Virus record (IMG/VR): IMGVR_UViG_3300008113_000374
Span: 1 to 26,246 of that record
Reading direction: 5' to 3' (one strand)
Source: a virus
DNA length: 26,246 nucleotides
Shown piece by piece: positions 31 through 13,201 of the stretch (its first letter is position 1; the number at the start of each line of letters is the position of its first letter). A program made the translations under genes and the position numbers. The notes beneath the pieces are model-generated. The model was not told the origin of the DNA. It searched no databases and was given only the letters and a program-made list of their open reading frames with translations.

Positions 31-81
31 TAGCCTTGTGTCCTTTATTTAGTTTTGATACTGAGTATCCTATCAGATACC
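14..81 (-). repeat. Duplicated promoter-plus-start segment, copy 1
   Basis: Two blocks here are repeated at 292-348 in the same order: a 17-bp block (14-30) encoding MSLANK on the minus strand, and a 19-bp block (63-81) carrying the -10 box. Copy 2 has them at 292-308 and 330-348, with a single G/A difference in the 19-bp block. A third MSLANK block is at 263-279. The sequence between the blocks differs, so promoter and start codons are kept while the linker and gene body diverge. Confidence 0.8.
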
Positions 82-132
82 CTCGCCATAGTCAAGGCGA
101 CACGCCGTAGGCGTTGTGTGAGTTATTTCACA
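63..132 (-). promoter_or_regulatory. Leftward promoter module with CRP-like site
   Basis: Read leftward: a perfect TGTGA-N6-TCACA palindrome (117-132), a GGCGTGTC box (99-106), a 3-bp gap, a TTGACT -35 (90-95), a 17-bp spacer and TAGGAT -10 (67-72) preceded by TGA. The palindrome centre is about 64.5 bp upstream of the predicted start. It overlaps the 3' end of the 123-230 gene. The same order of elements recurs upstream of many rightward genes. Confidence 0.7.
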
Positions 133-230
133 TTGTGTAGGCTTGTTATACAAGCGTTACACATAGCGGGAATACTCCGCTTAGATACATGAGCGGTCTT
201 ACCGCATAGCATACAATTTTTCTTAATCAT
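123..230 (-). CDS. 35-aa zinc-ribbon-like microprotein
   Basis: Leftward ORF of 35 residues, ATG at 228-230, with a strong AGAAAGGAT ribosome-binding site. Two Cys-x2-Cys pairs (C6/C9 and C24/C27) with basic residues between them suggest a small zinc knuckle. The role is unknown; it could bind nucleic acid or protein. It lies downstream of the MSLANK micro-ORFs and is probably read from the promoter at 334-362. Its 3' end carries the CRP-like site of the next leftward promoter. Confidence 0.65.
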   Translation of the reverse strand: MIKKNCMLCGKTAHVSKRSIPAMCNACITSLHNVK

Positions 231-308
231 TAGTTATCCTTTCTGAGATACTTTCTTGGGTCTTATTCGCTAGGCTCACCCGCTAGGCGGTTTATTTGCT
301 AGGCTCAT
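223..308 (-). other. Two tandem MSLANK micro-ORFs
   Basis: ATG at 308 opens a 10-codon frame (MSLANKPPSG) whose TGA overlaps a GTG at 279. That GTG opens an 18-codon frame with the same first six residues, ending at 223, and the next gene's ATG (230) overlaps its end. The first follows a leftward promoter with a GGG-rich ribosome site; the second has no clear site. They may be leader peptides, or scars of a tandem duplication of a gene start. Confidence 0.35.
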
Positions 309-348
309 ACCCTTATTTAATTGTTATAGGAGTATCCTATCAGGTACC
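292..348 (-). repeat. Duplicated promoter-plus-start segment, copy 2
   Basis: Second copy of the MSLANK block (292-308) and the -10-containing block (330-348) found at 14-81. A tandem MSLANK copy at 263-279 lacks its own promoter block. This is consistent with recombination of cassette ends at gene starts. Confidence 0.8.
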
Positions 349-535
349 TTGTCAAAAGTCAAGTCTAAACACGGCGTGTCGCATGTGGTGTTGATCACAC
401 TTTCCGGAGGTTATCCACAGGTCAGACCATTCATGTGTATAAGTAGTGTGACCCTTATCACAAAAAATAATTTCCCGACACGCCCGAAAAACGGGCTAAT
501 TTGTCAGTGGTGGGTGTTACACTTTCAGTATAAAG
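334..535. promoter_or_regulatory. Bidirectional regulatory module
   Basis: Divergent control region. Leftward: a CRP-like site with one mismatch (384-399), a GACACGCC box on the minus strand (373-380), a 10-bp gap, -35 TTGACT (357-362), 17 bp and -10 TAGGAT (334-339). Rightward: TTTCCGG (401-407), a perfect TGTGA-N6-TCACA (447-462), GACACGCC (477-484), a TTGTCAG box (501-507) and an extended -10 TGT-TACACT (ending 523). The rightward -35 slot (495-500) is weak. A perfect DnaA box (411-419) sits between the two arms. Confidence 0.7.
411..419 (+). promoter_or_regulatory. DnaA box TTATCCACA
   Basis: Exact match to the consensus DnaA box, in a divergent intergenic region. Further exact copies occur at 1278-1286 (minus), 3094-3102 and 3106-3114. 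Confidence 0.6.
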
Positions 536-538
536 AAA

Positions 539-557
539 GTTAAAGAAGGTCTTTAAC
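539..557 (+). promoter_or_regulatory. 5' UTR hairpin
   Basis: Perfect inverted repeat GTTAAAG-aaggt-CTTTAAC in the leader between the -10 box and the ribosome site of the 579 gene. A hairpin of different sequence occupies the same place upstream of 1427, so the structure rather than the sequence seems kept. Confidence 0.5.
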
Positions 558-578
558 AAGAAAGGAGTCAGAAATGAA

Positions 579-758
579 ATGACAAACTCAATCTTTGCAA
601 GAGTCGCTACACTTAGCGACTACCCACAGGGGTTAATGAACCTCTGTCAATGTGGGCAGGTTATCCTAGCCCCTGCTACTGTGCATGACATTTGCACAGA
701 AAATGGCGACTCTTATGGTCGCACTTGCTACCACTCACAATGTGGTCGCTCTCTCTAA
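579..758 (+). CDS. 59-aa Cys-rich small protein
   Basis: Start chosen at ATG 579, because the ATG five bases earlier meets TGA after two codons. AAAGGAG lies about 12 nt upstream. It carries Cys at residues 23, 25, 39, 50 and 55 (CQCG and CYHSQCG), which looks like a compact metal-binding fold. No family recognised. It is the first gene of a rightward set read from the module at 401-523. Confidence 0.65.
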   Translation: MTNSIFARVATLSDYPQGLMNLCQCGQVILAPATVHDICTENGDSYGRTCYHSQCGRSL

Positions 759-769
759 GCAATTAGAGA
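752..769 (+). promoter_or_regulatory. Tetraloop hairpin over a stop codon
   Basis: TCTCTAA-GCAA-TTAGAGA, a 7-bp stem with a GNRA-type loop, overlaps the TAA of the 579 gene. No U-tract follows directly. It may be an mRNA 3'-end stabiliser, a processing site or a weak terminator. No promoter is visible before the next gene (821). Confidence 0.45.
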
Positions 770-820
770 AATAAAAACTTAATAAAAATTAACTAATAAA
801 AAAAAGAAAGGTGGTCTCAA

Positions 821-997
821 ATGACTACACTAAACACACTATGTAAAGACCATAACCCTATGGTTTCCGCTATCTCTGAAATAGGAGATGAGCAATTCAC
901 TTTCTGCATGGATTGTGAACAAAACATTGAGCGTTACTACTATGATAGTGACCCTGAGCAATTCCCTATGTGGACAGATTGGTATGTGTCTAAATGA
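821..997 (+). CDS. 58-aa protein with two Cys pairs
   Basis: ATG at 821 preceded by AAAGAAAGG. It contains an N-terminal C8-K-D-H and a central C29-M-D-C32, so four possible metal ligands, with an acidic aromatic C-terminus. Small phage zinc-ribbon proteins often look like this; the function is unknown. The stop overlaps the next start as ATGA, indicating translational coupling. Confidence 0.65.
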   Translation: MTTLNTLCKDHNPMVSAISEIGDEQFTFCMDCEQNIERYYYDSDPEQFPMWTDWYVSK

Positions 998-1107
998 GAG
1001 ACTTTGTAAAAAATCAAGAATTAGAAAACTATTGGTCAGATAGTGAAATTGACCCGCTAGCAAAAAAGTTAGATGAAATCATAAAGAAAGGAGTTTACTC
1101 AAAATGA
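994..1107 (+). CDS. 37-aa hypothetical protein
   Basis: Starts in an ATGA overlap with the previous stop and ends in an ATGA overlap with the next gene. Charged, mainly helical in appearance, with no motif. Its reality rests on the coupled joints at both ends. Confidence 0.5.
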   Translation: MRDFVKNQELENYWSDSEIDPLAKKLDEIIKKGVYSK

Positions 1108-1238
1108 AGTTTATTTACACAATAGCCGTTGAGGTTGATGCAATTGACCAAGATGAAGCAACTTGGTTAATCTATAATTCTAAATTAGAAAATCTAAAAA
1201 CAAATTGTTTAGAGATTGAAATTGAAGAGACTGAATAA
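1104..1238 (+). CDS. 44-aa acidic hypothetical protein
   Basis: ATG overlaps the upstream stop; AAAGAAAGGAG lies inside the end of the previous gene at a suitable distance. It has an N-terminal strand-like MKFIYTIAVEV, an EATW helix and a Glu-rich tail, the pattern of small beta-alpha-beta phage proteins. No family assigned. Confidence 0.55.
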   Translation: MKFIYTIAVEVDAIDQDEATWLIYNSKLENLKTNCLEIEIEETE

Positions 1239-1259
1239 TGAATAATTATTCAACTCTCT
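1226..1259 (+). terminator. Terminator-like hairpin
   Basis: Nested inverted repeats AGAGA/TCTCT (outer) and GAATAAT/ATTATTC (inner) span the end of the 1104 gene. AAAATTTCCGG follows. This hairpin-then-TTTCCGG order recurs at 1995, 3041 and 7706. Confidence 0.5.
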
Positions 1260-1267
1260 GAATAAAA

Positions 1268-1377
1268 TTTCCGGAGCTGTGGATAACTTGTGGATATCTT
1301 ATGTGATCCTTATCACAAAAATAATTCTACGACACGCCCGAGATTTCCCATAATTTGTCAGTCCCCCATGATAGACT
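1268..1377 (+). promoter_or_regulatory. Promoter module with CRP-like site and DnaA boxes
   Basis: TTTCCGG (1268-1274), a perfect DnaA box on the minus strand (1278-1286) and a one-mismatch copy (1289-1297), a perfect TGTGA-N6-TCACA (1302-1317), GACACGCC (1331-1338), a TTGTCAG box (1355-1361) and an extended -10 TGA-TAGACT (ending 1377). The -35 slot at 1349-1354 is poor. The palindrome centre is about 74.5 bp upstream of the predicted start. The layout matches the rightward half of the 334-535 module. Confidence 0.7.
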
Positions 1378-1392
1378 TTCAGCATAAAGAAA

Positions 1393-1407
1393 GTGAGAAA
1401 CTCTCAC
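1393..1407 (+). promoter_or_regulatory. 5' UTR hairpin
   Basis: GTGAGA-AAC-TCTCAC, a perfect 6-bp stem between an AAAGAAA tract and the AAAGAAAGGAG ribosome site. It sits in the same place as the hairpin at 539-557 but with unrelated stem sequence. Confidence 0.5.
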
Positions 1408-1426
1408 AAAAGAAAGGAGTTAGCAA

Positions 1427-1636
1427 ATGACTAACTTACTAAATAACAACTTCTATAAAGTCCCTAATGGATTTTTTCAGATTAGCAATAACACTAATCT
1501 AAATTGCGACCATAGCGGTTTCGCAGATACTAAAGGTTATACCTTCTCAAATGGTAAAACCTCAATAATCCGCACTTGCGAAAAGTGTGGTTCAGAAAAA
1601 AGATTTTCTTCATACATGAAAGGTGGTCGTAAGTAA
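1427..1636 (+). CDS. 69-aa zinc-ribbon-like protein
   Basis: ATG after AAAGAAAGGAG. An N-terminal Asn-rich stretch is followed by C28-D-H30 and then C55-E-K-C58-G, giving a likely CxH/CxxC metal site, with a basic C-terminal tail (KGGRK). It resembles short phage proteins with a single zinc ribbon; nucleic-acid binding is possible. Its TAA overlaps the next ATG (TAATG). Confidence 0.7.
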   Translation: MTNLLNNNFYKVPNGFFQISNNTNLNCDHSGFADTKGYTFSNGKTSIIRTCEKCGSEKRFSSYMKGGRK

Positions 1637-1842
1637 TGGATACTTATAACAGAATACTAAAAGAGCAACAAGAAAAAAGAATTGCTCAGTCAATAAAAGA
1701 TAAGGCTATTGTTGAGGCTATGTTCTCTAATAACCCTCGTCCCCTAAATAATAACTATCAACCCGTTGGTATCTCAGTAAAAATTTCTTGCGACACTCTT
1801 GGTGTTCGTGGAACTATTCGTGGAAAGGCGGTTGCTAAATGA
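1636..1842 (+). CDS. 68-aa hypothetical protein
   Basis: Coupled to the upstream gene by TAATG and to the next by ATGA. The N-terminal half is a charged helix (residues 1-30); the C-terminal half ends in a strand-rich basic segment (VRGTIRGKAVAK). No family recognised. No separate promoter, so probably one transcript from the module at 1268. Confidence 0.65.
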   Translation: MDTYNRILKEQQEKRIAQSIKDKAIVEAMFSNNPRPLNNNYQPVGISVKISCDTLGVRGTIRGKAVAK

Positions 1843-1985
1843 AAAAGAATGTTTTGATTAGTTTCGTTACTGAAGCAGACACAGATCTGCAAGCAGTTTT
1901 CAATCTAAATAAAATAATGCAAAAACTTTCTGATGATGAATTAGAAAAGTTTGATGCATTTGAAGTTTTAGATGTTGCTGAATAA
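1839..1985 (+). CDS. 48-aa hypothetical protein
   Basis: Last gene of the 1427-1985 set, starting in an ATGA overlap. MKKNVLISFV resembles a first beta strand; a helix rich in acidic residues follows (LSDDELEKF). Small alpha/beta phage protein of unknown role. A hairpin terminator follows ten bases after the stop. Confidence 0.6.
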   Translation: MKKNVLISFVTEADTDLQAVFNLNKIMQKLSDDELEKFDAFEVLDVAE

Positions 1986-1994
1986 ATAAAAAAG

Positions 1995-2022
1995 TTTTCT
2001 GTTGGTGAAAGCTGACAGAAAA
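1995..2022 (+). terminator. Hairpin terminator
   Basis: TTTTCTGT (1995-2002) pairs with ACAGAAAA (2015-2022), an 8-bp stem with 12-nt loop, followed by TTTCCGG. It closes the 1427-1985 operon. Confidence 0.6.
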
Positions 2023-2099
2023 TTTCCGGGGCGTGTGATCTAAAACACACTTACGTTACGGCGTGTCGTCTTGACTTTTTGAAACTAATCTGTTAGACT
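2023..2099 (+). promoter_or_regulatory. Promoter module with CRP-like site
   Basis: TTTCCGG (2023-2029), TGTGA-N6-ACACA with one mismatch (2034-2049), GGCGTGTC (2060-2067), a 3-bp gap, -35 TTGACT (2071-2076), 17 bp and an extended -10 TGT-TAGACT (2094-2099). The palindrome centre is about 64.5 bp upstream of the predicted start, as in the leftward modules. It drives the 34-aa gene at 2134. Confidence 0.7.
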
Positions 2100-2133
2100 T
2101 ACATAGTAAGAAAATAAAGAAAGGATAACTAAA

Positions 2134-2238
2134 ATGGACTTTTTGGACTACATGGACGAAATCTATGAGGAACTTGTCTCAGAATTTGGACATGAAATTG
2201 AAGAAAAATGTGAGCATTATCACATTCCGCAAGCGTAA
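2134..2238 (+). CDS. 34-aa acidic microprotein
   Basis: ATG with AAAGAAAGGA upstream and a complete promoter module before it, which supports expression despite its size. Very acidic helix (MDEIYEELVSEFGHEIEEK) with a C-terminal C-E-H-Y-H that could bind metal. Function unknown. The next gene has its own promoter. Confidence 0.6.
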   Translation: MDFLDYMDEIYEELVSEFGHEIEEKCEHYHIPQA

Positions 2239-2245
2239 GTCTAAT

Positions 2246-2274
2246 TTGACTTTTTGCTAAAAAAATGAAATAAT
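2246..2274 (+). promoter_or_regulatory. Promoter for 2309 gene
   Basis: TTGACT, 17-bp spacer, AATAAT preceded by TGA. No CRP-like palindrome or GACACGCC box is attached, so this is a simple promoter. Confidence 0.6.
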
Positions 2275-2308
2275 AGAATTATTAGAAACTAAAGAAAGGT
2301 GACAACTA

Positions 2309-2521
2309 ATGTCAGCAAACATCTATACTATCGAAAGCCTACTTGTAGGAAAAACTTATCACTCTCGCACACTAAAGGGAGAAATTATCTCAGCCGAAAA
2401 GTCTGATGTATGGTATGGAGCAGATACCGAAAGTTATCTTGTTCAGGTTCGCCCCCACTACTCAGCACCACTAGGCTTGAAAGATACATACCGCACACTA
2501 GCAGTTAGGATAAATGACTAA
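2309..2521 (+). CDS. 70-aa hypothetical protein
   Basis: ATG after AAAGAAAGGTGA. Strand-rich sequence with KGEIISAEKSDVWYG and YLVQVRPHY segments, suggesting a small beta-barrel or KOW/SH3-like fold; this is a guess from pattern only. Its TAA overlaps the start of the next, frameshifted gene. Confidence 0.65.
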   Translation: MSANIYTIESLLVGKTYHSRTLKGEIISAEKSDVWYGADTESYLVQVRPHYSAPLGLKDTYRTLAVRIND

Positions 2522-2762
2522 TGAAATTAGATGAATTCAAAGCCCATGTAGAGGCACAGCGCATTCACGCATTCATTCTGATTCACCATTCCTGAGTCAG
2601 ATTCAAACACTACCCGCAGGCGTATTTGAATCAGTAAATGTCCAAGCCGTTGAGGATTTGCTAACACTTAGCACTTACACGTTAGATGAAGTGCAGGCAG
2701 AGTTAGACCGAGTAAATGAGGGTGGAACTCATGCGTTTATTTTGTTAGGAGAAAATAACTAA
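2521..2762 (+). pseudogene. Frameshifted ~80-residue gene
   Basis: ATG 2521 (overlapping the previous stop) reads 24 codons and stops at 2593-2595. A different frame is open from 2535 to a TAA at 2760-2762 and encodes a coherent protein (a segment near SPFLSQIQTLPAGVF, then VEDLLTL and EVQAELDRV) but has no start codon near its beginning. Joining the two frames near 2571-2577 gives one uninterrupted protein that ends in a TAATG overlap with the next gene. This points to a one-base indel, a sequencing error or a programmed frameshift. No classical slippery heptamer is evident. Confidence 0.6.
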
Positions 2763-2953
2763 TGATGACACGCAAAGACTATGTAAAGACCGCAGAAATT
2801 CTAAAAAGTTTTTCTGAGGAGATTCACCCCGCAGTATTTGAGGACATGGTGGATTTGTTCTCTGATTATTTCTTAGCAGATAATGAGAGATTTGATAAAG
2901 CAAGATTTGAAACCGCTTGCGGTGTTGATGAGTTAGGATTGATTGACGCATGA
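2762..2953 (+). CDS. 63-aa conserved phage protein (TRKDY family)
   Basis: Begins MMTRKDYVKTAEILK and continues to a C-terminal ADNERFDKARFETACG. I recognise this pattern from many actinophage small proteins of unknown function. The second ATG (2765) is an equally good start. Helical throughout. Its TGA overlaps the ATG of a 26-aa membrane peptide. Confidence 0.75.
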   Translation: MMTRKDYVKTAEILKSFSEEIHPAVFEDMVDLFSDYFLADNERFDKARFETACGVDELGLIDA

Positions 2954-3030
2954 TAGCATTGCAAAACATTAGCACAATTTTGTTGTGCGTTGGTGTTGGA
3001 TTTAGTTTAGCTTATTTATTTGTAAACTGA
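2950..3030 (+). CDS. 26-aa single-pass membrane peptide
   Basis: ATGA overlap with the upstream gene. Residues 8-24 are hydrophobic (STILLCVGVGFSLAYLF), enough for one membrane helix, with almost no charge. No family known. Coupled translation supports it; such tiny membrane peptides are common in phage early regions. Confidence 0.5.
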   Translation: MIALQNISTILLCVGVGFSLAYLFVN

Positions 3031-3040
3031 TCCACAAAAG

Positions 3041-3082
3041 TTTTGTTGAGATTTCAATTAGATGGTTGAAGTTTCAACAAAA
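3041..3082 (+). terminator. Hairpin terminator
   Basis: TTTTGTTGA (3041-3049) pairs with TCAACAAAA (3074-3082), a perfect 9-bp stem with a 24-nt loop, followed directly by TTTCCGG. It has the same layout as the terminator at 1995 but a different stem. Confidence 0.6.
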
Positions 3083-3195
3083 TTTCCGGGGGGTTATCCA
3101 CAGACTTATCCACAATGTGAATTACGTCACATTTTATTTATTTCCACAATTTTTGGGCGTGTCGATTTGATTTTGTCAGACCCAGATGATAGGAT
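3083..3195 (+). promoter_or_regulatory. Promoter module with CRP-like site and two DnaA boxes
   Basis: TTTCCGG, two perfect DnaA boxes TTATCCACA (3094-3102, 3106-3114), a perfect TGTGA-N6-TCACA (3116-3131), GGCGTGTC (3156-3163), a 3-bp gap, -35 TTGATT (3167-3172), a 17-bp spacer starting TTGTCAG, and extended -10 TGA-TAGGAT (3190-3195). The palindrome centre is about 78.5 bp upstream of the predicted start. Confidence 0.7.
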
Positions 3196-3224
3196 TACAG
3201 AGTAATTAAATGAAAGGAAAACTC

Positions 3225-3386
3225 ATGAAAAGTAATTTTGAGATAACGCAAGAGGTAAATGCCCTTGCTAAAAAGCACTATGGCGAGCAAGACCTTGCTT
3301 TCGTATGGGGTTGCGCCCAAGCACTATTAACTACTAAGCAATTAGAGTTAATTCTAGGAATACTAAAAGATAAGGAGGCTAAGTAA
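3225..3386 (+). CDS. 53-aa hypothetical protein
   Basis: ATG after GAAAGGAAAA. A helical protein with WGCAQALLTTKQLELILGILKDKEAK at its C-terminal half; the hydrophobic spacing suggests helix packing or dimerisation. No family recognised. TAATG overlap with the next gene; AAGGAG for that gene lies inside its 3' end. Confidence 0.65.
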   Translation: MKSNFEITQEVNALAKKHYGEQDLAFVWGCAQALLTTKQLELILGILKDKEAK

Positions 3387-3550
3387 TGAGCGAGTTTATC
3401 TTTATTTATTCTGTTTGTGGCAATAAGGGGTCTTTTGTGGATATCTATGATTTAGAGGCTAATCCGCATGGGGTTATTTGTTGTGATAATTGTCACAGTA
3501 TTGTGGCTACCCGTGAAAGTTGGTTTGCCGAACACGGAGTGTCGGTTTGA
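3386..3550 (+). CDS. 54-aa Cys-rich protein
   Basis: Coupled by TAATG to the gene above. Cys at residues 11, 32, 33 and 36 (CCDNCH) plus H37 form a possible zinc site. Its last codons contain the box and -35 element of the next promoter, so gene and promoter overlap. Confidence 0.65.
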   Translation: MSEFIFIYSVCGNKGSFVDIYDLEANPHGVICCDNCHSIVATRESWFAEHGVSV

Positions 3551-3575
3551 GTTTGTCAGACTAATCTGATAGGCT
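3536..3575 (+). promoter_or_regulatory. Promoter module embedded in gene 3' end
   Basis: GGAGTGTC (3536-3543, one change from GGCGTGTC), 3-bp gap, -35 TTGAGT (3547-3552), a 17-bp spacer beginning TTGTCAG and extended -10 TGA-TAGGCT (3570-3575). No CRP-like palindrome is seen. The -35 overlaps the TGA stop of the 3386 gene. Confidence 0.6.
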
Positions 3576-3603
3576 TTGAGTATTGAAAGAAAGGAAATGA
3601 AAA

Positions 3604-3804
3604 ATGGATAAAATAGAATACGCAGTAGAGAGAATTCGTAATTGCGATTTCTGCGGAGGAACAGGGTCTCAGTTTTGGGCTAATGGCGAGGACTTTGACT
3701 TTGAGACTTGCGAGGAGTGTAATCCTCATGAGATAATCTTTGACTATGACGGACACATTGTTTGGGATAATGGAACACTATTTACAACGCAGGAGGCTAA
3801 ATAA
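3604..3804 (+). CDS. 66-aa DnaJ-type zinc-finger-like protein
   Basis: Contains C14-D-F-C17-G-G-T-G and C36-E-E-C39, the CxxCxGxG-plus-CxxC pattern of one DnaJ zinc module. No J domain is present. An acidic FDYDGHIVWDNG segment follows. Zinc binding is likely and the role unknown; small phage proteins of this kind recur in actinophages. First gene of the 3604-4535 operon. Confidence 0.7.
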   Translation: MDKIEYAVERIRNCDFCGGTGSQFWANGEDFDFETCEECNPHEIIFDYDGHIVWDNGTLFTTQEAK

Positions 3805-4097
3805 TGGGAAGTAATTTTGCTAATGATTTAGTTACACTTGGAGATTTGGGTGTTGCCCTAGACATTGAAAGTCAGATAGGAATACACCTACGCTCTAATC
3901 ACTACCCGCCCGTACCGCTTTCTATGGTTCAGCCTTGTATTGAGGCTATTGACGCAGTAAATGACGCAGGACTTTGGAACCTAGAAATACCGCTGCCAGA
4001 GGGTATCTCATGGAAGGGTTGCGACACCGCACCCGCCCATGCTATTATTGAAGCACACCACCTAAACGCTTGGCTTATTGAACGAGAGGAATACTAA
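3804..4097 (+). CDS. 97-aa conserved actinophage protein
   Basis: TAATG overlap with the gene above. The segment HLRSNHYPPVPLSMVQPCIE followed by AIDAVND and a C-terminal IEAHHLNAWL is a pattern I recognise from many actinophages (typically R-x-N-x-[FY]-P-P-[IV]-P, ending I[VI]E-x-H-L). Function is not established. Likely soluble and cytoplasmic. Confidence 0.75.
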   Translation: MGSNFANDLVTLGDLGVALDIESQIGIHLRSNHYPPVPLSMVQPCIEAIDAVNDAGLWNLEIPLPEGISWKGCDTAPAHAIIEAHHLNAWLIEREEY

Positions 4098-4098
4098 A

Positions 4099-4308
4099 AT
4101 GGAATACACTTACTCAGTTACTACTTCGTATGACGGAGAATTAGTAAATACTTTGCGAGTATCAGACATGCTTGAAGCAGTATCAGCATGGGATAAGTGC
4201 GTAGACTTTGGAGATGCTAAGGAATACGCAACCTATAATCTATCAGACCCAACGGGTAAAATGTATACAAAAACTTTTTATCGTAACGGGAATGTAACGG
4301 GTAAATAA
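4099..4308 (+). CDS. 69-aa hypothetical protein
   Basis: Start set at ATG 4099 behind GAGAGGA, not at the in-frame TTG at 4078. MEYTYSVTTSYDGELV is strand-like, followed by the helix DMLEAVSAWDKCVDFGDAK and more strands: a small alpha/beta fold. Similar short phage proteins with a Y-x-V-x-x-x-Y-D-x-E opening exist, but no function is known. Confidence 0.65.
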   Translation: MEYTYSVTTSYDGELVNTLRVSDMLEAVSAWDKCVDFGDAKEYATYNLSDPTGKMYTKTFYRNGNVTGK

Positions 4309-4310
4309 AA

Positions 4311-4535
4311 ATGCCTGATACAATAATTAACATGGATTATCGCATGATAGATGTTCTCAATTCAGATCAGTTAGAGGTAGATGACCTAATTGATTTGAAT
4401 GGGGAAATTGTAAAAGTTATTTCTTTGTCACCATTGCGTTATGGTTTTGCTCTAACATATGAAGATGAATTTGGTGAGAAAGATATCGTTGATATTCTTG
4501 ATGATGAAACTTTTGATTTGTATATTCTAGAATAG
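4311..4535 (+). CDS. 74-aa acidic hypothetical protein
   Basis: ATG two bases after the upstream stop. The central DLIDLNGEIVKVISLSPL followed by a GFALTYEDEFG strand suggests a small SH3-like barrel of the kind that opens 'L-x-x-G-D-x-I'; this is inference. Acidic, no Cys pair. It ends the operon. A CCGG/GACACGCC-type intergenic module follows. Confidence 0.6.
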   Translation: MPDTIINMDYRMIDVLNSDQLEVDDLIDLNGEIVKVISLSPLRYGFALTYEDEFGEKDIVDILDDETFDLYILE

Positions 4536-4544
4536 CTGCTAAAA

Positions 4545-4638
4545 ATTCCGGGGCGCACCTTTTGTCCCAAAATGTCCGAATTACGTAGGACACGCCCATT
4601 TCCCCAAATTTGCCTTTCTGTTATTTTTGTGTTATTAT
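4545..4638 (+). promoter_or_regulatory. Promoter module for leaderless 4645 gene
   Basis: ATTCCGG (4545-4551), AATGTCCG (4571-4578), GACACGCC (4589-4596), -35 TTGCCT (4610-4615), 17 bp, extended -10 TGT-TATTAT (4633-4638). No TGTGA/TCACA palindrome; instead TGTCC and GGACA arms (4573-4592) flank AATTACG. The start codon lies 6 nt after the -10. Confidence 0.6.
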
Positions 4639-4644
4639 TTTATT

Positions 4645-4785
4645 ATGCTTAAAAAAACTAATGAGGAAATCAGGCGCTTAATGGAATTGAGACGCTCTAA
4701 TGCCGCCATGCCTCTTAGAAATAAAAAGAAATATTCTAGAAAAATTAAGCATAAAAATATTGACAAAAAAGAACAGATTGGATAA
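4645..4785 (+). CDS. 46-aa basic protein, leaderless
   Basis: The ATG is exactly 6 nt beyond the TATTAT -10 and has no ribosome-binding site, predicting a leaderless mRNA. Highly basic C-terminus (residues 25-43 are mostly Lys/Arg) with an N-terminal charged helix, which suggests nucleic-acid binding. No family recognised. Its last codons contain the -35 and spacer of the GP88 promoter. Confidence 0.6.
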   Translation: MLKKTNEEIRRLMELRRSNAAMPLRNKKKYSRKIKHKNIDKKEQIG

Positions 4786-4788
4786 AAT
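4760..4788 (+). promoter_or_regulatory. Consensus promoter for GP88 gene
   Basis: TTGACA, 17-bp spacer, TAAAAT, overlapping the end of the 4645 gene. The start codon at 4795 is 6 nt after the -10, so the message should be leaderless. Confidence 0.75.
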
Positions 4789-4794
4789 ATAATC

Positions 4795-5514
4795 ATGGCC
4801 CTTATTAGAAGCAAAGATAGAAAAGTAACTAATGCGGTTTCCCCTAATGGAAAGACTGCTACCATTGCGAATACCTTCGGACTACCCGCAGGAAAAGATT
4901 TCTCATGCCCTGGACAGACACCGACATGCGCTAAGGTATGCTATGCGGGAAAGCTTGAAAAGATCTATAAGGGTGTTAGGGATGTATTGCTACACAATTG
5001 GGAACAATTAAAAGACGCAGACCATGACACTATGGAAGCATTGCTAACAGATATGATTAATGAGTTTAGAAAAGATTGTGAAAAGAAAGACGCACCATTG
5101 CTATTTCGTATCCATTGGGACGGGGATTTCTTTAACGATGAATACGCCTTCGCATGGAAGCACGTTATTCTAAATAATCCTGATATTAAATTCTGGGTTT
5201 ATACACGAGTAGCCTCTGCCGCTAATATGCTTAAAGACATTGATAATCTTTCTTTATATTTCTCAACAGACGCAGACAATAAAGACATTGCTATTAACCT
5301 TAATAATGATAAGGGAATTAAATTAGCATACCTTGCAGATACCTTCGCAATTGGTCAGGCGGACATGAAAGAGATGATTGGCAAGGTAGGCGCAAAGTGC
5401 CCTGAGAATAAAAAAGCCATTCCGCTTATTTCACAAAGTGGATCTGCTTGCGTGTCTTGTGGATTGTGTATTGATAATAAGGCTAACATAGTTTTCTCTG
5501 CTAAAAAGAGGTAG
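4795..5514 (+). CDS. GP88-family Cys-rich protein
   Basis: 239-aa protein matching the phage 'gene product 88' family. N-terminal motif C38-P-G-x4-C45-x3-C49-Y-A-G, a central block with LLFRIHWDGDFF and VYTRVA, and a C-terminal C219-x2-C222-x2-C225. The spaced Cys set suggests an iron-sulfur or zinc site, but the biochemical role of the family is not known to me. Full length with no internal break. Expressed from its own strong promoter as a predicted leaderless transcript; nothing else is coupled to it. Confidence 0.85.
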   Translation: MALIRSKDRKVTNAVSPNGKTATIANTFGLPAGKDFSCPGQTPTCAKVCYAGKLEKIYKGVRDVLLHNWEQLKDADHDTMEALLTDMINEFRKDCEKKDAPLLFRIHWDGDFFNDEYAFAWKHVILNNPDIKFWVYTRVASAANMLKDIDNLSLYFSTDADNKDIAINLNNDKGIKLAYLADTFAIGQADMKEMIGKVGAKCPENKKAIPLISQSGSACVSCGLCIDNKANIVFSAKKR

Positions 5515-5526
5515 AGGAGAGGGGAC

Positions 5527-5555
5527 TTGCTAAATACCCCCCAAAATGGTAAAAT
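5527..5555 (+). promoter_or_regulatory. Promoter for 21-aa peptide
   Basis: TTGCTA, 17-bp spacer, TAAAAT preceded by TGG (extended -10). A GAAAGGG site and GTG follow within 25 nt. Confidence 0.6.
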
Positions 5556-5577
5556 GATAAAAACAGAAAGGGCAATA

Positions 5578-5643
5578 GTGGAATTAGTAATAATCTTAGT
5601 AATAACCCTCCTAATGCTCATGGGCATGGGTCACGAAAGGTGA
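5578..5643 (+). CDS. 21-aa membrane peptide
   Basis: GTG start five bases after GAAAGGG, behind its own promoter. Residues 3-18 are almost all Val, Ile, Leu and Met, then a charged GHER end: a single membrane helix. A hairpin terminator at 5654 closes the unit, making a promoter-ORF-terminator cassette of about 150 bp. No relative recognised; could also be a toxin-like peptide, but no antitoxin is evident. Confidence 0.5.
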   Translation: MELVIILVITLLMLMGMGHER

Positions 5644-5653
5644 TTTACCTCAC

Positions 5654-5676
5654 AAATCTCAAATAATGAGATTTTT
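5654..5676 (+). terminator. Rho-independent-like terminator
   Basis: AAATCTC-aaataat-GAGATTT, a perfect 7-bp stem, ending in TTTTT. Confidence 0.65.
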
Positions 5677-5688
5677 AGGGAAAATAAC

Positions 5689-5717
5689 TTGACAAAGCCA
5701 AAAATAAATGAAATAAT
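5689..5717 (+). promoter_or_regulatory. Promoter for 5757 gene
   Basis: TTGACA, 17-bp spacer, AATAAT preceded by TGA. The ribosome site AAAGGAG follows at about 40 nt. Confidence 0.7.
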
Positions 5718-5756
5718 AAATACTATAAAGCAATACCAACTAACAAAGGAGAAATA

Positions 5757-5921
5757 ATGTCAGTATCAGTAGCAACATACAAGGTGGGCGACACTTACAC
5801 TTCACAGAAGTCAAAGGTCACAGGAGTAATCAAGGAGATTGTTCCAACAGACAAGAACACAGTTCGTGTGAAGTTAGATGTAAATGGTGAAGTTCGCTGG
5901 ACAACTTGGAAAAACAAGTAA
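5757..5921 (+). CDS. 54-aa conserved actinophage protein (paralogue A)
   Basis: Pattern Y-K-V-G-D-T-Y-T-x-x-K-S-K-V-T-G-V-I, then KLDVNGEVRWTT. I recognise this small beta-rich protein from many actinophages, usually unannotated. The gene at 6525 is a diverged paralogue (shared G-D-x-[YF]-T, K-x-x-V-T-G, I-x-x-x-V-P and a strand ending in an aromatic). Good AAAGGAG site and own promoter. A small barrel that binds nucleic acid is possible but unproven. Confidence 0.75.
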   Translation: MSVSVATYKVGDTYTSQKSKVTGVIKEIVPTDKNTVRVKLDVNGEVRWTTWKNK

Positions 5922-5942
5922 TCTTAGCAACCGCTAACCTGA

Positions 5943-5970
5943 CCTGAGCAAGTCAAGGATAAACTGCTCA
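5943..5970 (+). repeat. Covarying hairpin element, copy 1
   Basis: CC then TGAGCA (5945-5950), 14-nt loop ending AAAC, TGCTCA (5965-5970). One of six copies between 5943 and 8919. No U-tract. Confidence 0.7.
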
Positions 5971-5972
5971 AT

Positions 5973-6001
5973 TTGATTTCTTACCTAGAAAATGCTAGAC
6001 T
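5973..6001 (+). promoter_or_regulatory. Promoter for 6044 gene
   Basis: TTGATT, 17-bp spacer, TAGACT with extended TGC. It begins two bases after hairpin copy 1. Confidence 0.6.
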
Positions 6002-6043
6002 AAGATAGAACCCCTAAACACCAAACAGAGAGGCAATACAAAC

Positions 6044-6463
6044 ATGGCAAGAGGAAAAGCAATTAGCGTGAAAATCGCTACACCTAAAGTTATCAAGGCT
6101 TTAGAAACAAAGTTAGCACAACTCCAAAAGGATAAGGCTAATCAGAAAGTAAATGAGGAGAAGTTCTCAAAGGCACAAGATAAGTGGAACAAGGAAGTCG
6201 CTAAGTTAGCACTTTCTCAAATCTCTAAGGCAGAAAATCTACGAGCAAGCACACGCTACAACGGCATGGTAAATGTAGATTTTGATTTGCCAAAGGGAAC
6301 GATTGACCTTCCTGCTGAACCTGAAAAGGATTTTGAGACCTACCATGAGTGGCAATACAAGGAAATGATTGAGGAAATCGAAAACGCAATTCGTATTCTC
6401 AAGATGACAGATGAGGAAGTAGTCAATACTACAACCTACAACGCTATCGCAAGATACTTGTAA
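6044..6463 (+). CDS. 139-aa coiled-coil phage protein
   Basis: Basic N-terminus MARGKAISVKIATPKVIKAL followed by a long charged helix to about residue 65 (KLAQLQKDKANQKVNEEKFSKAQDKW), then an ordered C-terminal part ending YNAIARYL. Similar proteins occur widely in actinophages without a known role. A weak GAGAGGC site precedes the ATG. Paralogues A and B flank it, and hairpin copies 1 and 2 lie on either side. Confidence 0.75.
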   Translation: MARGKAISVKIATPKVIKALETKLAQLQKDKANQKVNEEKFSKAQDKWNKEVAKLALSQISKAENLRASTRYNGMVNVDFDLPKGTIDLPAEPEKDFETYHEWQYKEMIEEIENAIRILKMTDEEVVNTTTYNAIARYL

Positions 6464-6471
6464 TTCACTCT

Positions 6472-6496
6472 CCTGAGCATGAGATAAAACTGCTCA
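6472..6496 (+). repeat. Covarying hairpin element, copy 2
   Basis: TGAGCA (6474-6479), 11-nt loop ending AAAC, TGCTCA (6491-6496), followed by ACACAAAAAACTAAG and the ribosome site of 6525. The A-rich tail recalls a preQ1-I riboswitch 3' tail, but the other copies lack it. No promoter is visible between this element and the next gene. Confidence 0.65.
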
Positions 6497-6524
6497 ACAC
6501 AAAAAACTAAGAAAGGAAAAACAA

Positions 6525-6692
6525 ATGACACTAGGCGGATACACTTATCAGATTGGTGATTTATTCACTACTTCTAAAACAGGTGTTACAGGACGAATTG
6601 AAAAGTTTGTTCCACAAAGTAAAAATGTAACTCGTGTAATGCTACGCTTGGCAAATGGTCAGCAACGATTTGCTATGGTAAAAACTTACTAA
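6525..6692 (+). CDS. 55-aa conserved protein (paralogue B)
   Basis: Diverged copy of the 5757 protein: Y-x-I-G-D-L-F-T-T-x-K-x-G-V-T-G-R-I, then F-V-P, V-x-R-V and a closing strand RFAMV. GAAAGGAAAAAC precedes the ATG. Without a visible promoter it is probably read from the 5973 promoter through hairpin copy 2, so its expression may depend on that element. Confidence 0.7.
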   Translation: MTLGGYTYQIGDLFTTSKTGVTGRIEKFVPQSKNVTRVMLRLANGQQRFAMVKTY

Positions 6693-6745
6693 TAAAATTA
6701 TTTCTGCTCTATTTCCTGGTTGGTTTTTAGAGTAGATATAAAAAT

Positions 6746-6770
6746 CCTGAGCATGATGTAAAACTGCTCT
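6746..6770 (+). repeat. Covarying hairpin element, copy 3
   Basis: TGAGCA (6748-6753), 11-nt loop ending AAAC, TGCTCT (6765-6770); the outermost pair is lost and the inner five remain. AATTTTT follows shortly, so this copy could terminate. Confidence 0.65.
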
Positions 6771-6784
6771 CCAATTTTTGGGCC

Positions 6785-6857
6785 CCGGAAAATGTGATGA
6801 AGATCACAGGGCAGCTTTAAGACACGATTTGTATTTTTCCAGATTTTCTGTTAAACT
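6785..6857 (+). promoter_or_regulatory. Promoter module with CRP-like site
   Basis: CCGGAAA (inverse of TTTCCGG, 6785-6791), a perfect TGTGA-N6-TCACA (6793-6808), GACACG (6821-6826), -35 TTGTAT (6829-6834), 17 bp, extended -10 TGT-TAAACT (6852-6857). The palindrome centre is about 63.5 bp upstream of the predicted start. Confidence 0.7.
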
Positions 6858-6885
6858 TATTACATACCAAAAGAAAGGAAGCCCC

Positions 6886-7164
6886 ATGTTATCAACAGCA
6901 TTGGCACTACAGCAAGCAACACAGGAAGCCGTCCATGATGAAAGCGTTATGGATTTAGCCTCTGCCCTATACCAACACAGAAATGAAATGACTAATGATG
7001 AATTTGCTAGAGCAATGTTCATGTATTCTGCTCATCTTGCTTCACTTACCACAACTCTTGTGACCCATGTCGTCTTGACAGAAAGCCAGTTAGATGAGAT
7101 GATTAGTGTTATAAAGGAATTTGACGAACTAGGAAAGGAATTCGACAATGGAAACAACAACTAA
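6886..7164 (+). CDS. 92-aa helical phage protein
   Basis: Start placed at ATG 6886 behind AAAGAAAGGA; the open frame extends upstream, but that part is promoter. All-helical: a central MTNDEFARAMFMYSAHLASL and a C-terminal acidic helix LDEMISVIKEFDELGKEF. Related small helical proteins occur in actinophages without a function. The next gene starts 17 bases before its end. Confidence 0.7.
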   Translation: MLSTALALQQATQEAVHDESVMDLASALYQHRNEMTNDEFARAMFMYSAHLASLTTTLVTHVVLTESQLDEMISVIKEFDELGKEFDNGNNN

Positions 7165-7576
7165 TAACGACGTTACCGTAATGAATGCAACTGCAGAATT
7201 TTTACATTCACAGATTGCACAGAAGGATACCCGTATTGCACAACTTGAGGAGCACGTACAAAATGTGACTCAACGTTCATATACAGAATCTGCAGAGCGC
7301 AGCCGTATGCGTAATGAAATGCAGGAATGGACCTTGGAACAACTGGATGAAGATTCAATTACACAATCGCAGGCCGAAGAAATTGCAAGCATTTGTGGTT
7401 TTGAATTATCCAAGGAAGTTGAAGTTGAGGTAACCGTTCAATATTCAATTACTGTAAATCTTCCACATGGTGAAGATATTCAAAATGTAATTCATGATAT
7501 CGATTTCGATACCGTTTCATATGATGATGACAAAATTACTTGGTTGTCATCCTCTATTGATAGAATAGATTTCTGA
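7148..7576 (+). CDS. 142-aa coiled-coil plus beta phage protein
   Basis: Overlaps the gene above by 17 bases; AAAGGA lies upstream of its ATG. Residues 15-65 form a charged coiled coil (QKDTRIAQLEEHVQNV). Residues 70-140 hold a helix then alternating strands VEVEVTVQYSITVNLP and ITWLSSSIDRIDF. This layout is familiar from actinophages, where it stays unannotated. Acidic and soluble. Confidence 0.7.
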   Translation: METTTNNDVTVMNATAEFLHSQIAQKDTRIAQLEEHVQNVTQRSYTESAERSRMRNEMQEWTLEQLDEDSITQSQAEEIASICGFELSKEVEVEVTVQYSITVNLPHGEDIQNVIHDIDFDTVSYDDDKITWLSSSIDRIDF

Positions 7577-7598
7577 TAGGGGGCTATCCAGAAACGGA

Positions 7599-7624
7599 CC
7601 TGGGCACTGTCTTTAAACTGCCTC
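7599..7624 (+). repeat. Covarying hairpin element, copy 4
   Basis: TGGGCA (7601-7606), 12-nt loop ending AAAC, TGCCTC (7619-7624). An A-U pair of the common stem is replaced by G-C and a wobble keeps the next pair; the outermost pair is lost. Confidence 0.6.
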
Positions 7625-7703
7625 ACAATCTTCGCCAGGCTGATTAGGGCGATAACAGAAATACTATAGAGCCAGTTCACACTAACTGCAAGAGGTGTAA
7701 ATT

Positions 7704-7728
7704 CCTAAGCATGAATCAAAACTGCTTA
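7704..7728 (+). repeat. Covarying hairpin element, copy 5
   Basis: TAAGCA (7706-7711), 11-nt loop ending AAAC, TGCTTA (7723-7728). A G-C pair of the common stem is replaced by A-U on both strands. TTTCCGG follows at 7734, as after other terminators. Confidence 0.7.
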
Positions 7729-7733
7729 TAAAA

Positions 7734-7832
7734 TTTCCGGGGGCCTGTGAGATTGATCACATTAAGGGAATGTCCGATTTTTCCCAATTTCTAGCAGCCT
7801 TATTTGACATTGACAGCCCCGCATGATAAGAT
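7734..7832 (+). promoter_or_regulatory. Promoter module with CRP-like site
   Basis: TTTCCGG (7734-7740), a perfect TGTGA-N6-TCACA (7746-7761), AATGTCCG, then TTGACA (7804-7809), 17-bp spacer, extended -10 TGA-TAAGAT (7827-7832). The palindrome centre is about 85.5 bp upstream of the predicted start. This is the only module here with a full consensus -35. Confidence 0.75.
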
Positions 7833-7863: not shown

Positions 7864-8880
7864 ATGGCACATGAACTAGAAACGCAAAATGGCGTTGCTT
7901 CATTCGCTTCTTTCCGTGAACCTGCTTGGCATGGTCTAGGTACTGTATTCACAGAAGAAAAAACAACAGCAGAAATGTTATCTGCTGCTAACTTATCAAA
8001 TTGGAATGTACGTCTTGAAGATGTAAACATTCCTAATCACTTATCATCAGATAAGAACTATCAGTACGTAGTGCGTACAAATCCTACAGATAATACTCAG
8101 ACAGATGTTTTGGGTGTTGTTGGTGAGCGTTACCATGTTTTACAGAATGAAGATTTATTCTCATTCGGTGACAACATTCTTGATGGCGGAGGTCGTTGGG
8201 AAACGGCTGGCGCAATTCGTGGTGGTCGTGTAGTATTCGGCTCTCTTGCTCTTGAACGTGAGACAGTGCTAGACCCTAGCGGTGTTGCGGATAAGGTAAA
8301 AACTTATTTGCTTATCAATACATCACATGATGGCTCTATCGCTATTCAAGCAAGCATTACACCTGTTCGTGTTGTGTGCGCTAACACTCTCAATCTTGCG
8401 CTAGGCTCTAAGCGTGGAAAGAACGCTATCAAGCAATCTTTCAAGATACGTCACACTCAGACCGCCAATGGTAAAGTACAAATTGCTCGTGAGACTCTTG
8501 GTCTTGCCAATAAGTACATGGACGAATTCGATAAGATGGCACACGCAATGATTACTAAAGAAATCACAGCCGTTGATTTCAATAACATCATTCTTGCTGC
8601 TTATCCTAAGCCTGAAAAAGATGCTAAGGGTGCTATCAAAAAGTGGGAAACCAAAGTTGATACCATCAATGACATTTACACAGGCGAATTCAATGGAATG
8701 ATTGCTGGCAATGCGTGGGGTGCTTTCAATGCGCTTACTGAACGCCTTGATTGGTATCGTTCTGCTCGTGGTGGTAACAACGAGAGTATTCTCGCTGCTG
8801 CTAGTGGTTTTGACGCTACAATTACAGCAGAAAAAAATCGTTTGCTAAAAGTTGTAAAAGATGTTTTAGCAATAGCGTAA
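7864..8880 (+). CDS. DUF932 phage/plasmid-like protein
   Basis: 338 aa, matching the DUF932 / TIGR03299 family of phage and plasmid proteins. N-terminal block with FREPAWHGLGTVF, a central core with NTLNLALGSKRGKNAIKQSF, and a C-terminal helical part with GNAWGAFNALTERLDWYR. Length is normal for the family. Its function is not settled; members occur near replication or recombination genes of mobile elements. Single-gene unit between a CRP-type promoter and hairpin copy 6. Confidence 0.85.
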   Translation: MAHELETQNGVASFASFREPAWHGLGTVFTEEKTTAEMLSAANLSNWNVRLEDVNIPNHLSSDKNYQYVVRTNPTDNTQTDVLGVVGERYHVLQNEDLFSFGDNILDGGGRWETAGAIRGGRVVFGSLALERETVLDPSGVADKVKTYLLINTSHDGSIAIQASITPVRVVCANTLNLALGSKRGKNAIKQSFKIRHTQTANGKVQIARETLGLANKYMDEFDKMAHAMITKEITAVDFNNIILAAYPKPEKDAKGAIKKWETKVDTINDIYTGEFNGMIAGNAWGAFNALTERLDWYRSARGGNNESILAAASGFDATITAEKNRLLKVVKDVLAIA

Positions 8881-8894
8881 ATAAAAACGCAACT

Positions 8895-8926
8895 CCTGAG
8901 CAAGAGTATAAACTGCTCACTTTTTT
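8895..8926 (+). terminator. Covarying hairpin element, copy 6, with U-tract
   Basis: TGAGCA (8897-8902), 11-nt loop ending AAAC, TGCTCA (8914-8919), then C and six T. Of the six copies this most resembles a working terminator, for the DUF932 gene. Confidence 0.7.
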
Positions 8927-12595: not shown

Positions 12596-12627
12596 TGGCT
12601 GGGGATTTGACAAGGATCGCCCAGCCA
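12596..12627 (+). terminator. Hairpin terminator
   Basis: TGGCTGGG (12596-12603) pairs with CCCAGCCA (12620-12627), 8 bp with 16-nt loop, then TGGTATTTTCCGG. It ends the 12347 gene. Confidence 0.65.
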
Positions 12628-12660
12628 TGGTATTTTCCGGAGTACATTTCCAAACAACTT

Positions 12661-13201
12661 ATTACGAAACCATCAAAATTTTCCAGAAATTTTATTACGA
12701 ACTTTCAAAATATTTTCCAGATTCATGGGAATTTTCAAACATGATATCAAATATATTTTGATTTGTCAAGTATCAGGTATATAGCTTATACTGTATATAG
12801 GTATGTTTGTTGAGTATTCTTTATATACCGTCCCGTTTTCTGCCGCCCGTCTGCGGCGGTGTCTAATAAGCCTAAAAGACATTACGAACGCCCGATTTTT
12901 TTTCCCCGAAATTTGGACGGTATAAAACAATATACCCTGATCCCCTATATAAAACATTACGATAGTATATATAAAATCCCCAAATAGTTTTTAAATATTT
13001 TGCTACATTTTCTGGATATTTTATTACGAAATCAAATATTTTTTCCACAAATTTGGACATTTTTCTACATTTTTAAATCTCAATATATGAGATATATTTG
13101 TCCATATTGTGGGATATATAGGTACTTGACAAACAATTTGATATGGGGTATAATCCAGAAAATTTGGATATGTCTATATATAGTGGTTTTGGGATTACGA
13201 A
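12661..13201 (+). repeat. ATTACGAA direct repeats
   Basis: Five exact copies and one single-base variant on the same strand within 540 bp. The same heptamer core TTACGAA also occurs singly elsewhere (for example upstream of 9084 and inside ssb), so it is enriched here, not unique. Confidence 0.6.
13126..13154 (+). promoter_or_regulatory. Consensus promoter with no gene behind it
   Basis: TTGACA, 17-bp spacer, TATAAT: a perfect match. The predicted start is near 13161. No ORF with a ribosome site or leaderless start follows; the next gene (13335) has its own -10. A TTGGG/CCCAA hairpin lies in the transcribed part (near 13188-13206). Confidence 0.7.

Follow-up and report, generated by a model that had tools for sequence, protein, structure and literature searches.

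Class I CRP promoters of Escherichia coli (lac type) carry a site of the TGTGA-N6-TCACA family upstream, and their working positions are one helical turn apart; the cooperativity of CRP is about 760-fold at -61.5 and about 6-fold at -64.5 (PMC6301791). The regulons of Mycobacterium tuberculosis CRP (Rv3676) and Corynebacterium glutamicum GlxR span tens to hundreds of loci in these bacteria. Phage genes may also come under a host CRP, as pir, dam and recE of phage T1 are repressed by CRP with cyclic AMP (cAMP) (PMC6737242). In phage Mu, the phage-encoded Mor acts at the Pm promoter through a 16-bp element that is centred at -43.5 and built from 5-bp inverted repeats (PMC4390567). Here, we analysed a viral record of 26,246 bases with a G+C of 37% (IMG/VR record IMGVR_UViG_3300008113_000374; the window, hereafter, is this whole stretch), in which copies of the dyad TGTGA-N6-TCACA stand upstream of a row of promoters. 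These dyads are probably operators for the Crp protein of the host (GlxR/Rv3676 type), which would activate the promoters of a small-gene region in class I fashion, always acting from the same side of the helix.

Crp-type dyads and their helical phase

Eight perfect dyads were found in the window, where 0.02 were expected from shuffled sequence, and none of 100 shuffles reached eight. Allowing at most one mismatch over the whole 26 kb, we found 11 dyads (eight perfect and three with one mismatch), all inside the first 7.8 kb, the perfect ones being confined to positions 117–7761. An earlier sequence-only reading had listed six perfect and two one-mismatch dyads. All eight were recovered exactly where it had placed them, but two perfect dyads (2209–2224 and 3482–3497) and one with a single mismatch (5639–5654) had escaped it.

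Close relatives of the window are IMG/VR contigs of up to 120 kb, which form a large family of uncultured freshwater actinobacterial viruses, the freshwater origin of the contigs being presumed. From about 160 related IMG/VR loci, taken with up to 10 kb on each side, redundant stretches were removed, leaving 1.3 Mb; unless otherwise indicated, results for relatives refer to this sample. The sequence-only reading had proposed counting the motif in relatives and hosts. In relatives, the count clearly bears it out, with 283 perfect copies against 1.68 expected. Among all 5-mer inverted repeats with spacings of 0–16, TGTGA-N6-TCACA is the top-ranked dyad. Besides the 283 perfect copies, 335 copies with one mismatch were found (2 and 18, respectively, for the reversed control). 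The centre of the dyad is A/T-rich, TT, AA and TA being enriched 2.2–2.5 fold, and TA, the preference of GlxR, is not dominant. In the 30 long phage records, perfect sites number 1–9 per record and are present in 30 out of 30, while the reversed control occurs once across all 30. The sites are restricted to one gene region, ahead of a cluster of small genes: most lie no more than 6 kb from the GP88 gene, in loci that extend up to 10 kb on each side.

Each of the 11 window dyads has an extended -10 element on one side (TGnTAnnnT; TGAAATAAT at 2209 and 5639), and the dyads at 117 and 384 face left, toward minus-strand promoters. The sequence-only reading had assigned every dyad to an intergenic module ahead of a -10 promoter. 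A promoter is indeed present at every site, but not all sites are strictly intergenic (those at 2209 and 3482 overlap the 3' end of an upstream open reading frame, ORF), and the -10 elements proved to be of the extended type, several being accompanied by a -35. Site distances were taken between the dyad centre and the final base of the -10. In position order, the 11 distances are 57.5, 57.5, 68.5, 67.5, 57.5, 57.5, 71.5, 85.5, 70.5, 56.5 and 78.5 bp. With +1 set 7 nt past the -10, the previously given distances to the start were reproduced: 64.5 bp (117, 384 and 2034), 63.5 bp (6793), 75.5 and 74.5 bp (447 and 1302), 78.5 bp (3116) and 85.5 bp (7746). The spacing of about one helical turn claimed from these values holds for 8 of the 11 sites once the missed ones are added; one window is no proof of such spacing, which the relatives strongly support.

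In the relatives, distances to the extended -10 form sharp peaks near 46.5, 57.5, 67.5 and 78 bp, with few values between. A period of 10.56 bp fitted best, with peaks at 46.5, 57.1, 67.7, 78.2 and 88.8 bp, in a fit that excludes a class of sites at 62.5 bp. When promoters were grouped by their downstream protein, the distances of orthologous promoters differed mostly by 10–11 bp or by about 21 bp, and not by just any length, individual promoters hopping among 57, 67 and 78 bp. Taking one promoter per ortholog cluster (n of about 63), we obtained a resultant length R of 0.575, whereas none of 20,000 random sets exceeded 0.397. A second sample of 92 unique new promoters, gathered by pattern alone and without the anchor genes, gave an R of 0.74, and 84% of these promoters lie within 1.5 bp of the phase, compared with 30% expected. 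As the pattern demanded TGTCAG and an extended -10, this sample covers one promoter type. The 62.5-bp class is half a turn off phase. In 12 of the 12 rows of the displayed cluster, a second dyad abuts 16 bp upstream, at 78.5–79.5 bp, and since this outer dyad is in phase, the off-phase class is explained. Such pairs, the centres of which are separated by exactly 16 bp, precede the MTTLN- gene (loci L012, L102, L104, L119, L139, L160 and others); two abutting dyads could hardly be occupied at once by two Crp dimers.

Site spacing is therefore a matter of selection for a helical face. Chance occurrence of the dyads, or the copying of an ancestral promoter module whose phase was inherited and not selected, deserves hardly any credence: the dyad count is far above expectation, and the site distances of orthologous promoters differ mostly by turns of the helix and not by arbitrary lengths, even though some window modules are visibly alike (repeats D1, D6, D7 and D10). 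Moreover, the multi-peak 10.5-bp series is absent for decoy motifs at the same promoters (a DnaA-like box, GGCGTGTCG, ATGTCCG and CCGG). The earlier reading of a coordinated promoter set is thus upheld: its operators are of the CRP/GlxR type, stand in helical phase and are conserved across a large phage family.

As in class I promoters, the sites lie upstream of the -35 and their positions repeat with each helical turn. Almost all centres are 46–89 bp upstream of the -10 in a fixed phase, which is the layout of an activator; repressing sites generally overlap the promoter. This layout makes it improbable that host Crp binds as a repressor or brake, delaying the genes according to the metabolic state of the cell, despite the precedent of host cAMP-CRP repression in phage T1 (pir, dam and recE).

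The protein that would read the dyads

The sequence-only reading had left the regulator as either host cAMP-CRP/GlxR or a phage analogue. On the phage side, no Crp helix-turn-helix (PF13545, HTH_Crp_2) or cyclic-nucleotide (cNMP)-binding domain (PF00027) over cut-off was found in 30 phage records (54–120 kb, possibly incomplete). A phage-encoded Crp analogue is thus rejected within the limits of these two domain searches in the 30 records. A phage-encoded cyclase yielded a single match, below threshold.

The window contains DUF932, GP88, SSB and WhiB genes, and because it carries the WhiB gene, an actinobacterial host is indicated. One metagenome-assembled genome (MAG) holds a 4.7-kb phage-like contig (L164) with a DUF932 gene that is 89% identical. 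The order of this MAG, which we take to be Nanopelagicales, was used as the putative host order and is represented by 61 genomes (G001–G061), mostly of 1.2–1.5 Mb. A protein with HTH_Crp_2 over cut-off was found in 57 of them. A representative Crp aligns over its full length with M. tuberculosis CRP (E 8e-80), with an identical helix GASRETVNKALADF; in the three Crp examples examined, the recognition helix GASRETVNKALADFA is kept in all three and the TN cAMP-site signature of Rv3676 in two. The first HTH_Crp_2 match in the MAG was discarded, as a by-eye reading of its ORF pointed to a GntR-type protein. Given the lack of a Crp or cNMP domain in the phage records and the presence of a matching Crp in the putative host order, the reader is likely host Crp of the GlxR/Rv3676 type rather than a phage analogue. 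The host half of the earlier suggestion is therefore indirectly supported, whereas its phage half is not.

Several observations weigh against host Crp as a class I activator. Within the window, 3 of the 11 sites (3116, 3482 and 5639) are out of phase. Across the family, dyad centres fall near -53.5, -64, -75 and -85 (+1 inferred 7 nt past the -10), a shift in the upstream direction of about 2.6 bp from the E. coli class I positions (-61.5, -72 and -82.5), in an organism that is not E. coli; the periodicity part of the earlier "as in class I CRP activation" stands, but the absolute phase does not match the E. coli optimum (PMC6301791). For E. coli CRP, a site at -64.5 has about 6-fold and not 760-fold cooperativity (PMC6301791). 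This offset may reflect a different phase set by the actinobacterial polymerase, or a different contact. The host identity draws on the WhiB gene, the presumed freshwater origin and one 4.7-kb MAG contig, and tRNA(-Met) similarity did not favour the putative host order, its top matches being in larger genomes. In the count that had been proposed for hosts, the motif is not enriched genome-wide in this order: 9 perfect sites were found in the 61 genomes, fewer than for the reversed control, and one-mismatch counts were close to the control. A Crp regulon using the same motif was not seen in the genomes of this order. Finally, class III adenylate cyclase was found in 0 of the 61 genomes (other cyclase classes not searched).

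Some of these points would fit a phage-encoded regulator outside the Crp family, which would read the dyad and activate as Mor of phage Mu does, its match to the Crp consensus being a convergence. The motif is unused genome-wide in the putative host order, the absolute phase is unlike that of E. coli CRP, other phage-specific elements stand beside the site (TTTGTCAG, GGCGTGTCG and ATGTCCG), and Mor at Pm is a precedent. We nevertheless regard such a regulator as unlikely: the dyad agrees with the CRP/GlxR consensus at all ten fixed bases and in its A/T-rich centre, a full match that is not to be expected of an unrelated family, and no candidate phage protein was identified, other helix-turn-helix types not having been searched in the phage proteins.

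The host counts also bear on a sponge, in which numerous perfect sites, multiplied with the phage genome, would titrate Crp off host promoters, wherever they lie. In number of perfect sites, the phages (1–9 per record) exceed almost every genome of the putative host order, 52 of the 61 having none. A sponge, however, needs neither the helical phase nor the link to promoters, which are both strong, and it is very improbable as the function of the sites.

As regards cAMP, the earlier suggestion of cAMP-CRP control finds no support, because no class III adenylate cyclase was found in the putative host order. In M. tuberculosis, cAMP has only an about 2-fold effect on DNA binding by Rv3676 (PMC4005916). 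Should this order be the host, its Crp would most likely function with little cAMP or even none, and the evidence as a whole leans the same way. Independently of the phages, we note that a streamlined actinobacterial order (G001–G061) conserves Crp, while no class III adenylate cyclase was found in it, which suggests that the Crp of this order works without cAMP.

Activation by host Crp is the reading that we retain as the probable one. A host Crp dimer would bind the dyad 46–89 bp upstream of the -10, on a fixed helix face, and help host RNA polymerase to hold the extended -10 promoter, probably through contact with the alpha C-terminal domains of the polymerase. The phage, with no detectable Crp of its own, would rely on host Crp, and the genes so controlled may be early ones. 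More tentatively, it is possible that a freshwater actinophage family has built a Crp regulon of its own, with 1–9 perfect operators each on one helical face ahead of a row of extended -10 promoters, and that a conserved, constitutively available host Crp needing little or no cAMP serves as the switch-on factor.

Promoter anatomy and site map

When the site-associated promoters of the relatives were aligned on the -10, the extended -10 took the form TGnTARRMT, a -35 TTGA was present in about 60% of them, and TTTGTCAG was strong at -30 to -23. In the window, TTTGTCAG lies within the -35/-10 spacer at 500–507, 1354–1361, 3172–3179 and 3552–3559, and it is highly conserved in the site-associated promoters of the relatives.

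Other boxes were observed beside the dyads. The box GGCGTGTC occurs in either orientation near Crp-type sites at window positions 99–106, 373–380, 477–484, 1331–1338, 2060–2067, 3156–3163 and 4589–4596. Near sites in relatives, it was counted 75 times, vs. 5.6 expected; in most cases it keeps to one or two set distances from the -10, and it is perhaps the site of a second regulator. In the same surroundings, GGCGTGTCG and ATGTCCG are enriched about 10-fold, GGCGTGTCG and its reverse also keeping, for the most part, to one or two set distances from the -10. The DnaA-box-like TTATCCACA adjoins Crp-type sites at 411–419, 1278–1286, 3094–3102 and 3106–3114 and is enriched about 6-fold near sites in relatives, a possible link of these promoters to DnaA. 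GGCGTGTCG, ATGTCCG and TTATCCACA may be sites for further regulators.

The leftmost dyad, TGTGAGTTATTTCACA (117–132, minus strand, perfect), lies 57.5 bp from the -10 of a minus-strand promoter at 67–95, which consists of a -35 TTGACT (95–90), a 17-bp spacer and the extended -10 TGATAGGAT ending at 67. The one-mismatch dyad at 384–399 (minus strand, 57.5 bp) has a promoter of the same composition at 334–362 (minus strand; TTGACT, 17 bp, TGATAGGAT ending at 334). Behind this promoter is an ORF of 35 amino acids, MIKKNCMLCGKTAHVSKRSIPAMCNACITSLHNVK, with two CxxC (123–230, minus strand), whose 3' end overlaps the 117 site. All of the following features are on the plus strand. The perfect dyads TGTGACCCTTATCACA (447–462, 68.5 bp) and TGTGATCCTTATCACA (1302–1317, 67.5 bp) precede the extended -10 elements TGTTACACT (515–523) and TGATAGACT (1369–1377), respectively, each with TTTGTCAG before it. 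A small ORF of 69 amino acids (1427–1636) is located behind the 1302 module. Both TGTGATCTAAAACACA (2034–2049, one mismatch) and TGTGAGCATTATCACA (2209–2224, perfect, within the 3' end of a small upstream ORF) lie at 57.5 bp; their promoters (2071–2099 and 2246–2274) have a -35 TTGACT and a 17-bp spacer, followed by the extended -10 elements TGTTAGACT and TGAAATAAT, respectively. The ORF of 70 amino acids behind the 2209 module (2309–2521) is among the ortholog clusters of the phase test.

Two of the out-of-phase dyads are perfect: TGTGAATTACGTCACA (3116–3131, 71.5 bp), with the extended -10 TGATAGGAT at 3187–3195, and TGTGATAATTGTCACA (3482–3497, 85.5 bp), which lies within an upstream ORF (3386–3550) and has the extended -10 TGATAGGCT at 3567–3575. 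TTTGTCAG is found before both -10 elements. The third, GGTGATTTACCTCACA (5639–5654, one mismatch, 70.5 bp), is a weak candidate, with a promoter at 5689–5717 (-35 TTGACA, 17 bp, extended -10 TGAAATAAT). The last two dyads are perfect: TGTGATGAAGATCACA (6793–6808, 56.5 bp) precedes the extended -10 TGTTAAACT (6849–6857), and TGTGAGATTGATCACA (7746–7761, 78.5 bp) precedes a promoter at 7804–7832 (-35 TTGACA, 17 bp, extended -10 TGATAAGAT). Behind the 7746 module is the DUF932 gene (7864–8880, 338 amino acids), whose orthologs keep the upstream site.

Two further features were recorded in the window. The repeat TCCTGAGCATGAGATAAAACTGCTC is present at 6471–6495, 6745–6769, 7703–7727 and 8894–8918, in stretches 3' of stop codons, and the dyad GAGCA-N11-TGCTC is enriched 42-fold in relatives; a hairpin in the RNA that serves termination or processing is a possible role. 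The region 12600–13200 is A/T-rich, without a long gene-like ORF, and holds five TTACGAA repeats, a possible origin or recombination region.

Comparison with described systems

Among cultured phages, all DUF932 relatives have <60% identity and most belong to actinophages; among the matches listed, Samistivirus-type phages of Streptomyces are the nearest. In Streptomyces phage Angela (Samistivirus, Stanwilliamsviridae), the DUF932 gene is 53% identical and likewise lies in a small-gene cluster near the genome end, but TGTGA-N6-TCACA is found 0 times in the 10.3 kb around it. No prior report of CRP- or GlxR-driven actinophage promoters was found in the open-access library searched.

The Pm promoter of phage Mu likewise has, on its upstream side, a 16-bp element made of two 5-bp inverted repeats. 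It differs in being read by Mor, a phage product, and in its centre at -43.5, whereas no phage-encoded reader was found here and the sites are further upstream. Phage T1 offers the likeness of phage genes (pir, dam and recE) under host CRP. Its control is a repression, in E. coli, and needs cAMP; in the viruses studied here, several conserved and phased upstream sites suggest activation, and the genomes of the putative host order gave no sign of a class III cyclase. That a host CRP can govern single phage promoters was already known, but no report of a family-wide, multi-promoter and helically phased Crp/GlxR regulon in phages was found in the open-access library searched. If true, it would define a host dependence for uncultured actinophages and provide a means to predict their promoters, and hundreds of promoters would constitute a natural experiment on the spacing rules of actinobacterial Crp and RNA polymerase.

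With E. coli class I promoters of the lac type, the phage promoters share an upstream site of the TGTGA-N6-TCACA family and working positions one turn apart. They differ by a series that is about 2.6 bp off (phage centres near -53.5, -64, -75 and -85, from an inferred start), by an extended -10 with the extra TTTGTCAG element, and by an actinobacterial host. With M. tuberculosis CRP (Rv3676) and C. glutamicum GlxR, the recognition helix is the same in the ortholog of the putative host order, and the consensus and upstream placement in their regulons agree with the phage sites (PMC4117774). The putative host genomes show no motif enrichment comparable to these regulons. The Rv3676 and GlxR regulons are spread over tens to hundreds of host loci, whereas the sites described here form a dense, phased set on a phage.

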